A DNA stretch of 64,000 nt from SAR86 cluster bacterium AG-390-O18 (GTDB lineage: Bacteria > Pseudomonadota > Gammaproteobacteria > Magnimaribacterales > AG-339-G14), in the NCBI GenBank assembly GCA_003279605.1, contig QCHF01000001.1:90075-154074 (forward strand). Direction: 5' to 3'. The position numbers and the translations under genes are program-made. A model generated the notes under the pieces. That model had not been told where the DNA came from. It was given only the letters and a program-made list of their open reading frames with translations, and did not search any database. The stretch's first letter is position 1; each line of letters opens with the position of its first letter. Shown one piece after another: positions 37,522 to 59,712 of the stretch.

Positions 37522-37607
37522 AGTTTTTCAAAAAATACGTATATTATCTAAAACATAACTCATTTAGGAGAGTTAATTTATAAATTAAATCACTTTTGGG
37601 AGGATTT

Positions 37608-38294
37608 ATGGGCTATTTAGCTACAAATGATTACGTAGGTATCTCGTTCTGGATTGCGACTGCTATTATGTTAGCGTCGACAGTATTCTTCTTTGTAGAA
37701 AGACAAGACGTATCTGGTAAGTGGAGAACTTCACTTACTGTTGCAGGTCTTGTAACTGGTATTGCTTTTTGGCATTACCTTTACATGAGAGGGATGTGGT
37801 CAGATATGGGAGCTTCGCCTACGGTATTTAGATACATTGACTGGTTAATCACAGTACCACTTCAAATCATTGAGTTTTACTTGATTGTTGCAGCTGTTAC
37901 AGCGGTAAGCGCAGGAATATTCTGGCGTTTACTTATTGCTTCAATCGTAATGCTTGTTGGTGGTTATCTTGGTGAAACAGGATTGTGGGCACCTTCAGTG
38001 GGATTCGCTGTAGGAATGATTGCTTGGGTATACATCATCTATGAAATATTTCTTGGTGAGACTGCTGCAGCAAACGCCTCGAGTGGAAACTCTGCAAGTC
38101 AAAGCGCATTTAATACAATTAAATGGATCGTAACTGTTGGTTGGGCAATTTACCCACTTGGTTACGCGCTTGGTTATTTTGCAGGCGGAGTCAATAACGA
38201 AGCATTAAACATTGTTTATAACCTTGCTGACTTGATCAACAAAACAGCATTCGGTTTAGCAATTTGGGCAGCTGCTAAAGCAGATTCAGCTTAG
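37608..38294 (+). CDS. Proteorhodopsin, blue-tuned light-driven proton pump
   Basis: Seven-helix retinal protein that pumps protons outward in light. Key residues by position here: His56 (partner of the acceptor), Asp78 in RYIDWLITVP (proton acceptor), Gln86 at the tuning site, where Gln gives blue absorption, Glu89 (proton donor), and Lys212 in ADLINKTAFG (retinal Schiff base). The ATG at 37608 follows GGGAGG by 6 bases. An in-frame stop 9 bases before the upstream TTG at 37596 rules out a signal peptide, unlike many proteorhodopsins. A strong terminator follows, so it is a single-gene unit. No carotenoid or retinal-synthesis genes are in the window. Confidence 0.96.
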   Translation: MGYLATNDYVGISFWIATAIMLASTVFFFVERQDVSGKWRTSLTVAGLVTGIAFWHYLYMRGMWSDMGASPTVFRYIDWLITVPLQIIEFYLIVAAVTAVSAGIFWRLLIASIVMLVGGYLGETGLWAPSVGFAVGMIAWVYIIYEIFLGETAAANASSGNSASQSAFNTIKWIVTVGWAIYPLGYALGYFAGGVNNEALNIVYNLADLINKTAFGLAIWAAAKADSA

Positions 38295-57301: not shown

Positions 57302-57388
57302 GGAGCGTAATATTTTAAATAACGTTTGCCGTTGTCTTTTTGGTACTTAGGCGACAATTTCGTTAATCCATTTAAAGGATTACGCTCC
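57302..57388 (+). ncRNA. Structured intergenic RNA-like element
   Basis: 87 bases closed by perfect 10-base inverted repeats GGAGCGTAAT (57302-57311) and ATTACGCTCC (57379-57388). Inside, TAACG pairs with CGTTA, and GTTGTC with GACAAT, giving a coaxial stem series with an asymmetric internal loop. A direct repeat ATTTAAAGGA occurs at 57295-57304 and 57370-57379. It may be a 3' UTR structure of the giant gene, a small RNA, or a small inverted-repeat element. Orientation is assumed from the following plus-strand terminator. Confidence 0.5.
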
Positions 57389-57423
57389 CTGGGCCCGGCC
57401 TTGTGCCGGGTTCAGTTTTTTTT
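57389..57423 (+). terminator. Intrinsic terminator after the giant gene
   Basis: CTGGGCCCGGC-cttgt-GCCGGGTTCAG is an 11-bp stem including two G-T pairs, followed by eight T. It is by far the most GC-rich short stretch nearby. Confidence 0.88.
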
Positions 57424-57455
57424 AATTTGATAGGTATAATGGACAACTTTTTATC

Positions 57456-58217
57456 ATGAGACAATTTATAGATTTTTTTCTAGCAATTCGCGACAGTCGA
57501 TTTTTTACCGGTTTGGTGATTACGGTGATTGTTGCTTCAGCTATTTATGCTGGCGCTAGTTCGTACAACATTCCTTCACAATATGCGTTGATAATCGACT
57601 ATCTCGATTACGCCATTACAATTTTTTTCTTAATTGAAATATTGATTCGAATGTTTGCTGAGGCAAATCATCCTTTGAGATTTTTTAAAAACGGGTGGAA
57701 TATTTTTGATTTAGTCATCGTGGTTGTTAGTTTGATACCAGTTGATGGCGCCTCCAGTGCTTTCGTTGCTCGTCTTTTACGAATTGTCAGAGTGCTGAGA
57801 ATCATAACGGTGATTCCTGCTTTTCGACACATTGTGGAGTCTTTATTTAGGTCGTTACCGCGAGTTGCTTTCATTGCCTTGTTGATGTTCATTGTGATTT
57901 ACATTTGGGCAGCAATAGGTACGTTAATTTTCAGCGAAGCCGATCCGGAGCATTGGCGTAACATTGGTATTGCAGCATTAACGCTGGCGCAGGTTGCAAC
58001 TTACGACGATTGGGCAGCAGTCATGTCTGAAGTAAGCGATGTCTATCCTTTTGCTTGGGTCTATTTCCTCAGTTTTATTTTAGTGACCTCAGTCGTTTTA
58101 TTGAACATGGTCATTGGGATCATCGTAGATGTAATGAGTCGCGACGCCCGAGAAAATCTTTTTGATAACGTGGACACAAACGACCACGTGGTTACCAAAG
58201 AAAACGAAGGATTATGA
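57456..58217 (+). CDS. Voltage-gated cation channel, one-domain bacterial type
   Basis: Six-helix ion channel of 253 residues related to NaChBac/NavAb. S1-S3 span about 15-95. S4 carries Arg106, 109, 112 and 115 at every third residue (RLLRIVRVLRII), the voltage-sensor pattern. S5 is at about 137-158 and S6 at about 198-226 (LLNMVIGIIVDVM). The pore filter reads TYDDWAA (182-188) where sodium channels have TLESWSM-type sequence, so two Asp replace Glu-Ser. A polar C-terminal tail could tetramerise. TATAAT lies 15 bases before the ATG. It overlaps the next gene by 4 bases (ATGA). Confidence 0.92.
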   Translation: MRQFIDFFLAIRDSRFFTGLVITVIVASAIYAGASSYNIPSQYALIIDYLDYAITIFFLIEILIRMFAEANHPLRFFKNGWNIFDLVIVVVSLIPVDGASSAFVARLLRIVRVLRIITVIPAFRHIVESLFRSLPRVAFIALLMFIVIYIWAAIGTLIFSEADPEHWRNIGIAALTLAQVATYDDWAAVMSEVSDVYPFAWVYFLSFILVTSVVLLNMVIGIIVDVMSRDARENLFDNVDTNDHVVTKENEGL

Positions 58218-58978
58218 GCTTCATAACCATCAGTACTTTCAACTATTTTTTGATTGCATGGTTAGCAGTGGGACTGGTGGCCTTTGTTTATTTGTTTTTT
58301 GAAACTGCCCCATACGGTAAGCACGTCTCAAAAGGTTGGGGTCCTGAGATCTCAGCCAAAGCCGGTTGGATCGTCGAAGAATGTCCGGCGTTTTTCTTGA
58401 TGCTCTTGTATTTTATTGTGGCTGGTGATTACACCAATCCAGTACACGTTATTTTTACGGTTTTGTATTGCGGTCATTATTTCAATCGAAGCTTTGTTTG
58501 GCCAATGCGTGCTCAGTCGACCGATAAAAAAATGCCCTTGATGGTGGTCTTTTCAGCCATTGGTTTCAATTTTGTTAACGTTTTTTTTCAAGGCACATGG
58601 ATTTTTCTTTTGAGCGATTACACCGGCGCTTGGCTTGTATCAATTCCTTTTCTTTTGGGTCTGGTGATTTTTTTTACTGGATTTTATATCAATGTTAGAT
58701 CGGATGAGATCATGATAAATCTGAGAAAGGATAAAGGCGAGGGTTATCACATTCCCAAAGGTTTTTTATTCAATAAGGTAAGTAACCCTAATTATCTGGG
58801 TGAGTTCATCGAATGGTTAGGTTGGGCCATCATGACTTGGAGCTGGGCAGGCTTGGTCTTTTTCTTATGGACAGTGTGTAATTTATTTCCACGCGCTGTT
58901 TCAAATCACAATTGGTACAAAAATAAATTCGAAGACTATCCTGCCGATAGAAAAGCAGTAATACCTAATATTATTTAA
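58214..58978 (+). CDS. Steroid 5-alpha-reductase-like membrane oxidoreductase
   Basis: Multi-pass membrane protein of 254 residues. The C-terminal part has the family signature: GYHIPKGFLFNKVSNPNYLG near residue 177, followed by EFIEWLGWAIMTWSWAG and LFPRAVSNHNWYKNKFEDYP near 223. Eukaryotic homologues reduce the delta-4 double bond of 3-oxo-steroids with NADPH; related bacterial proteins include isoprenylcysteine methyltransferase-like enzymes with a similar fold. The substrate here is unknown, possibly an enone lipid or sterol-like compound. It is translationally coupled to the ion-channel gene. Confidence 0.85.
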   Translation: MSFITISTFNYFLIAWLAVGLVAFVYLFFETAPYGKHVSKGWGPEISAKAGWIVEECPAFFLMLLYFIVAGDYTNPVHVIFTVLYCGHYFNRSFVWPMRAQSTDKKMPLMVVFSAIGFNFVNVFFQGTWIFLLSDYTGAWLVSIPFLLGLVIFFTGFYINVRSDEIMINLRKDKGEGYHIPKGFLFNKVSNPNYLGEFIEWLGWAIMTWSWAGLVFFLWTVCNLFPRAVSNHNWYKNKFEDYPADRKAVIPNII

Positions 58979-58988
58979 GAAACGACAT

Positions 58989-59390
58989 ATGGAAAGATTC
59001 ATTAAATATTTTTTAGGCTCGCTAATGATCTTCTCTTTAATTTTAGCGATTATGTTTATGATTATGCCGACTTATATGGATCAACTGACCGCCTTAGGAT
59101 TTACACCTGAGGAAATGCGTATTTGGGTTTATCGAGTTGTTGTACCAACATACTTTCTTACAATTGCTTACTTTTCCTATCGATATTTGAGTGGAAAAAA
59201 TCCAACTTCAACCGTTTGGCCCATTCTGATAGTAACCCTTTTCTTTTTGGTAACTCAGATAATTGGATTTATCTTTTTTTATTTTCATTGGATTCAAATT
59301 ATTTATTTTCTTATTACTGTGAGTTCATTTTTCATTTTGAGAGAAGCACATAACCGAAGAAAAAACGATATTTTTGGCAGTTCTCTTTAA
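58989..59390 (+). CDS. Small four-helix membrane protein, unknown function
   Basis: 133 residues with hydrophobic segments at about 10-28, 47-65, 74-95 and 97-116. The loops are short and the C-terminus is basic (REAHNRRKNDIF). I do not recognise the family. It begins 10 bases after the steroid-reductase-like gene, so probably belongs to the same transcript as the ion channel. Confidence 0.72.
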   Translation: MERFIKYFLGSLMIFSLILAIMFMIMPTYMDQLTALGFTPEEMRIWVYRVVVPTYFLTIAYFSYRYLSGKNPTSTVWPILIVTLFFLVTQIIGFIFFYFHWIQIIYFLITVSSFFILREAHNRRKNDIFGSSL

Positions 59391-59424: not shown

Positions 59425-59712
59425 ATGTTGCAGAGACTAGATTTTTTAACCAAATTTTATATACGAACTGTTGCTGCTTTATGGATTCTTTTTGTTCCAG
59501 CGCTTTATTTGATTTCACTATTTTTAGGATCAGATAATATTTCTTTCAACCTTTTTTTAAACAGCTTGTTCGAATGGGCCGTTTTGGTCCCATTTGGGCT
59601 GGAACAAACAATACCAGAAAACATTGCTCCTTTAATAAGGTTCTTTTTTTGGTCTTTCTGGGTTTTAACAATCACCCGCTGGGTAATAACTGGAAAACAT
59701 TTTTACCAATAA
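59425..59712 (+). CDS. Small membrane protein, unknown function
   Basis: 95 residues with two to three hydrophobic segments (about 12-36, 43-58, 70-86) and aromatic-rich sequence such as FFFWSFWVLTITRW. TATAAT lies 11 bases before the ATG, and no ribosome site is obvious. It may have its own promoter or be read through from the 133-residue gene 34 bases upstream. Function not recognised. Confidence 0.65.
   Translation: MLQRLDFLTKFYIRTVAALWILFVPALYLISLFLGSDNISFNLFLNSLFEWAVLVPFGLEQTIPENIAPLIRFFFWSFWVLTITRWVITGKHFYQ

Follow-up and report, generated by a model that had tools for sequence, protein, structure and literature searches.

The 64,000-nucleotide window analysed here, from the genome of the SAR86 cluster bacterium AG-390-O18 (1.28 Mb, 96.6% complete), encodes a one-domain voltage-gated cation channel with aspartate at two adjacent positions of its selectivity filter, D184 at the high-field-strength (HFS) site and D185 at position +1, the 'beacon'. 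What is new is that Asp at both the HFS and the +1 site occurs natively, and is conserved, in channels with a NavRh/AnclNav scaffold; a literature search with the TYDDW filter gave no match, although it may still be published. The best overall explanation, which we consider about evenly poised between right and wrong, is a divalent-binding, Ca2+-permeable voltage-gated channel, either mixed or Ca2+-preferring. The features discussed are collected in Table 1.

Table 1. Location of the channel gene, its functional elements and its neighbours (positions in the window).
Feature	Position	Strand	Basis
Bacteriorhodopsin-family gene	37596-38294	+	Pfam 7.9e-47
Giant FecR - acidic stretch - cadherin protein, 2391 aa	50097-57272	+	Pfam FecR and Cadherin; C-terminal fold; conserved context
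Conserved structured RNA element between giant gene and channel gene	57302-57425	+	Terminator-like hairpin 57389-57415 and T-run at end
One-domain (6-TM) voltage-gated cation channel gene	57456-58217	+	ORF from ATG to stop; Pfam Ion_trans; PDB match NavRh 4dxw; AlphaFold2 model and Foldseek
S4 gating charges Arg106, 109, 112, 115	57771-57800	+	Invariant in 55 aligned channels
Selectivity filter TYDDWAA, residues 182-188	57999-58019	+	Alignment; P1-P2 loop in model; D184/D185 invariant 29/29
Steroid 5-alpha-reductase-like membrane protein gene	58214-58978	+	Pfam Steroid_dh 9e-52; gene context
Small membrane-protein-like ORF	58989-59390		
Small membrane-protein-like ORF	59425-59712		

The open reading frame is complete, encodes 253 amino acids and lies exactly where the original prediction had placed a channel. 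Its product matched Pfam Ion_trans (PF00520; 149 bits, 1.5e-43) as a single six-transmembrane domain, which confirms the family. In a PDB search the best one-domain match was NavRh (4dxw; 4.8e-62, 213 bits), and NaChBac and NavAb scored only about 130-136 bits. The AlphaFold2 model had a mean pLDDT of 87, and Foldseek searches with it ranked NavRh first and also matched NavAb. Besides the four S4 arginines, the counter-charges Glu61 in S2 and Asp85 in S3 are invariant across the 55 aligned channels. With all four arginines present and the pore residues conserved under purifying selection, both sensor and pore are as intact as had been proposed, and the gene almost certainly encodes an intact voltage-gated cation channel. 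The protein has no C-terminal coiled coil of the NavAb/NaChBac kind.

The filter residues T182-Y183-D184-D185-W186-A187-A188 aligned without any shift with T175-L-E177-S178-W179 of NavAb (TLESWSM) and with TLESW of NaChBac, and the anchors on either side, Q-V-x-T and W, are conserved too. In the AlphaFold2 model, helix P1 (170-181), the filter loop (182-185) and P2 (186-194) follow in the expected order, and since TYDDWAA lies in the P1-P2 loop the filter is not displaced. A displaced filter or a frameshift was rejected on these two grounds. The proposed replacement of the Glu-Ser of NavAb and NaChBac by Asp-Asp thus stands, and the alignment suggested as a check for displacement put the motif exactly at the selectivity filter. 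The filter is neither TLESW with an HFS glutamate, as in canonical Na+-selective BacNav channels, nor of the CavMr type, having Asp instead of Gly at position 4. P2 starts one residue earlier than in NavAb and NaChBac, a property common to NavRh and the TFEDWTD (AnclNav) channels.

Conservation was examined in 29 representatives of the YDDW clade, obtained after 95% redundancy removal from SAR86 and four Woeseiaceae-like MAG contigs. Invariant positions number 76 and include T182, D184, D185 and W186. Tyr183 is replaced once, by Phe (L051), and positions 187-188 vary (AA, GA or AN). D184 is present in all 29 clade members versus none of 93 channels from four other groups, which have Glu or Ser there. 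Within the genus the median dN/dS was 0.028, at a median dS that is saturated (>2). The invariance of the filter and the low dN/dS indicate that the pore is kept and not decaying; a pseudogene or a chance motif was rejected on the same evidence (dN/dS about 0.03, Asp-Asp in 29/29). The channel is under strong purifying selection.

To place the channel among one-domain channels, a maximum-likelihood tree of 90 sequences, NavPp and CavMr not among them, was built with the filter columns excluded. All 29 YDDW rows form one branch (support 100/100), so the clade has a single origin. This branch is nested in a clade (100/98) that also contains NavRh-type channels and the TFEDWTD channels of gammaproteobacteria but not NavAb-like channels or NaChBac. 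The phylogeny that had been recommended as a check thus assigns the channel to the NavRh/AnclNav (ancestor-like) branch, and close kinship to NavAb/NaChBac was rejected. The name AnclNav is applied to the TFEDWTD channels on the strength of their filter, which agrees with the group as described in PMC7041947; that study tested members of the family from Halomonas elongata and Teredinibacter turnerae. The sister group on the tree is the TLEGWPD channels, with weak support (85/11); the exact root and sister group are unsure owing to long branches near the root, flagged by a tool warning. Two further filter arrangements were seen among the sequences collected. A distant BacNav-like protein (L184:718-1512, +) has the filter TFDDWMA, a coiled-coil-like tail and has lost most S4 gating arginines; it is an independent Asp-Asp filter and, judged from its sequence, perhaps not voltage-gated. 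L168 and L169 each contain a tandem pair of genes for one-domain channels, whose filters are T[TM]EGWP[TD] and T[TS]EGWP[SD]; such a pair possibly encodes a heteromeric bacterial channel.

Channel matches were found in 71 of the 203 genomes of the order, always one per genome. The YDDW type accounts for 57 of these, as assigned by score and identity, with the filter letters read directly in representatives and not in all 57. The remaining 14 have TLEGWPD (four, L145-L148) or SSWE-like filters (ten, L149-L156, L019 and L020), and the types never occur together in one genome. SAR86 thus contains three mutually exclusive filter classes, TYDDW, CavMr-like TLEGWPD and NavRh-like SSWE, a division that is also new. 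The TLEGWPD filter (L145, L146, L147, L148) is one letter from that of Ca2+-selective CavMr (TLEGWVD), so by the CavMr rule these channels are predicted to select Ca2+. Outside SAR86, YDDW channels occur in three Woeseiaceae-labelled MAGs (L045, L047, L048) and in one probably misbinned contig titled Flammeovirgaceae (L046), which nests with the Woeseiaceae-labelled sequences. An Opitutia-titled sequence (L023) was likewise taken as misbinned because it is 88% identical to the SAR86 protein. None of the viral contigs searched encodes a relative of the channel, and viral cargo was rejected as its nature.

The gene upstream of the channel adds a second new element. Near its N-terminus the product carries a FecR domain. 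It also has a region rich in D and E (142 of the 345 residues at 216-560) and cadherin repeats containing LDYE/LDFE motifs, and its C-terminal part is modelled, at low to medium confidence (pLDDT 67), as a barrel that resembles TbpB and the C-terminal domain of NHBA. A query with this C-terminal part found relatives in 49 of the 203 genomes of the order, 46 of them with a YDDW channel. In 38 of these 46 the giant gene is directly 5' of the channel on the same strand; in the other eight, which belong to genus g3 of the window's family, it is located elsewhere. No giant protein was found in the 14 SAR86 genomes with TLEGWPD or SSWE-like filters, nor in eight checked genomes with AnclNav-like or SSWE channels. 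The association is strong (Fisher p 3e-31), with the proviso that related genomes are not independent. Part of SAR86 often has one to three matches per genome, one copy adjoining the channel. The pair also occurs in Woeseiaceae-labelled MAGs, where the neighbour is a 2471-aa FecR-cadherin protein (L200:1916-9331, -). The linkage between this FecR-acidic-cadherin-TbpB-like surface protein gene and the YDDW channel has been long kept, and it suggests that the giant protein may be a physical or regulatory partner of the channel.

The gap between the two genes holds an exceptionally conserved structured RNA element, also new, with 40 predicted pairs and ending in an intrinsic-terminator-like hairpin. 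The element is 85-100% identical in 8 of the 16 genomes of the host genus, and a 51-nt core is identical in seven. Genomes sharing this core differ at up to 66 of 81 fourfold-degenerate sites of the adjoining channel gene. An Rfam search of the element returned no family above threshold; it is a candidate sRNA or 3'-UTR RNA. A -10-like GTATAAT also lies between the genes, although a promoter scan of the gap gave no site above chance. The hairpin and this -10-like motif make shared transcription unlikely here, and a strict operon in the host genome was rejected. In other families the gaps are short (35-60 nt) and have no terminator-like hairpin.

On the downstream side, the steroid 5-alpha-reductase-like gene overlaps the channel stop by 4 nt, but a lasting operon was rejected since this neighbour is conserved only within the genus. 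The two small ORFs that follow it have no Pfam match. The bacteriorhodopsin-family gene, about 19 kb from the channel, is possibly a light-driven source of the membrane potential that the channel would sense.

The best understood relatives differ from the channel in instructive ways. NavRh (Rickettsiales HIMB114), the nearest solved one-domain relative at about 45% identity, shares the shorter P2 start and also lacks a long C-terminal coiled coil, but its filter is TLSSWET, with Ser at the HFS site and an acidic residue after the Trp. Transplanted into NaChBac, this filter confers Na+ selectivity (PMC4225499). NavRh itself was silent in heterologous cells (PMC4225499), and the present channel may likewise fail to express. 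The AnclNavs, including NavPp (TLEDWTD), and the native CavMr are in the same branch and have extra acidic filter residues, with the gammaproteobacterial TFEDWTD channels standing close to the YDDW clade; however, NavPp, CavMr and the AnclNavs have Glu at position 3 and Asp at position 7, where the channel has Asp and Ala. The same Asp-Asp pair at positions 3-4 is found in engineered CavAb (TLDDWSD) and the NaChBac LDDWAD mutant, which differ by a third Asp at position 7, a NavAb/NaChBac backbone and a P2 one residue longer. NsvBa from Bacillus alcalophilus (TLDSWGS) is a native bacterial channel with an HFS Asp, but it has Ser at +1, belongs to the NaChBac branch and is non-selective. CatSper1, a subunit of the animal sperm Ca2+ channel, has Asp at the HFS and +1 positions (PMC10120453), but it is a eukaryotic protein and part of a heteromeric channel.

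From these comparisons we propose a homotetrameric cation channel, from the NavRh/AnclNav branch of the BacNav superfamily, that is activated by depolarisation and in which the tetramer would carry eight filter carboxylates (Asp184 and Asp185 of each subunit). The Asp ring is expected to bind divalent cations strongly, which would make this not a strict TLESW-type Na+ channel but a Ca2+-permeable one, mixed or Ca2+-preferring; in sea water, membrane depolarisation would let in Ca2+ together with some Na+. That the channel is not Na+-selective in the TLESW sense is probable. A preference for Ca2+ over Na+ (PCa/PNa > 1) has an even chance at best. Thus, of the earlier proposal of a natural Ca2+-permeable or mixed channel, the native marine Asp-Asp channel and a plausible mixed or Ca2+ permeability stand, and Ca2+ preference is left finely balanced.

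Several observations on other channels favour divalent permeation. The HFS Asp makes NsvBa non-selective with divalent permeation, D186E abolishes this and restores Na+ selectivity, and LDDWAD grafted into NsvBa gives a PCa/PNa of about 30 (PMC4225499). A +1 Asp in NaChBac (LEDWAS) yields Ca2+ current (PMC7764494), and the beacon Asp has been tied to Ca2+ selectivity or to Ca2+-blocked Na+ current (PMC10120453). The cadherin repeats and long acidic stretch of the conserved neighbour provide weak context for the Ca2+ reading. Na+/Ca2+ exchanger family genes say nothing about a Ca2+ role because they occur in most SAR86 genomes (155 of 203, including the host) with or without the channel. On the other hand, the channel, having Ala at positions 6 and 7, lacks the outer carboxylate of CavAb and CavMr, and in the AnclNavs NavPp and CavMr a position-4 Asp gives no Ca2+ selectivity or even lowers it: NavPp is Ca2+-blocked with a PCa/PNa of 0.31, and CavMr-G4D drops to about 8 (PMC7041947). 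The original prediction had carried over the Ca2+ preference of Asp-substituted NavAb (TLDDW series). This transfer is not supported: the channel is nearest NavRh, an AnclNav position-4 Asp brings no Ca2+ gain, and the last Asp of CavAb is missing. The NavAb analogy was the weakest part of that prediction, since in the closest relatives that have been characterised the charge rule is reversed by the scaffold context.

Our ranking puts a Ca2+-permeable or Ca2+-preferring channel first, a Ca2+-blocked Na+ channel resembling NavPp second and a non-selective channel third. In the second case the affinity of the Asp ring for Ca2+ or Mg2+ would be so high that these ions plug the pore instead of crossing it, leaving Na+ as the current carrier. 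NavPp, from the same branch and with a position-4 Asp, behaves in this way, and its T6A mutant (TLEDWAD), which matches the present channel in its position-6 Ala, shows a deeper block (PMC7041947). However, NavPp and all AnclNavs compared have Glu at position 3; Asp is found there only in the YDDW clade, and in NsvBa it accompanies divalent permeation (PMC4225499), which leaves this a rather doubtful reading. The aromatic Tyr183 need not cause block, as NavAb L176F does not (PMC10349818), with the qualification that this substitution is Phe and not Tyr. A non-selective pore, in which the site is wider because the Asp side chain is shorter, letting through Na+, K+ and Ca2+ alike, would follow the example of NsvBa and its D186E reversion (PMC4225499), but the additional +1 Asp raises divalent affinity and the position-6 Gly of NsvBa is Ala in most YDDW members (Gly in a minority), making it unlikely. 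A protein that conducts little or nothing and serves as voltage-sensing or structural partner of the giant surface protein might fit the conserved gene pair and the lack of NavRh current in heterologous cells (PMC4225499), but it is very improbable given the strong purifying selection on filter, pore-helix and S6 residues, as for a conducting pore.

Because the filter has been retained by the whole YDDW clade, nature provides here a convenient case in which to test calcium passage. CavMr, with its Gly-based filter, is the one native prokaryotic Ca2+ channel that we found reported in the literature. The natural series TYDDW[AG][AN], TLEGWPD and TLSSWE (NavRh) on one scaffold branch makes the role of charge, glycine or scaffold in the choice between Na+ and Ca2+ directly testable. 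Given the rhodopsin in the same genome, a potential-gated channel could also bear on the sensing of light and energy state. A first lead on the purpose of such a channel comes from its linkage to the conserved giant surface protein. The most far-reaching version, a native SAR86 Ca2+ channel with CatSper1-like chemistry unlike that of CavMr, its Asp-Asp filter on a NavRh-like scaffold and working with the cadherin-bearing protein, is a long shot; if true, it would constitute a voltage-to-calcium-to-cell-surface link in bacteria.
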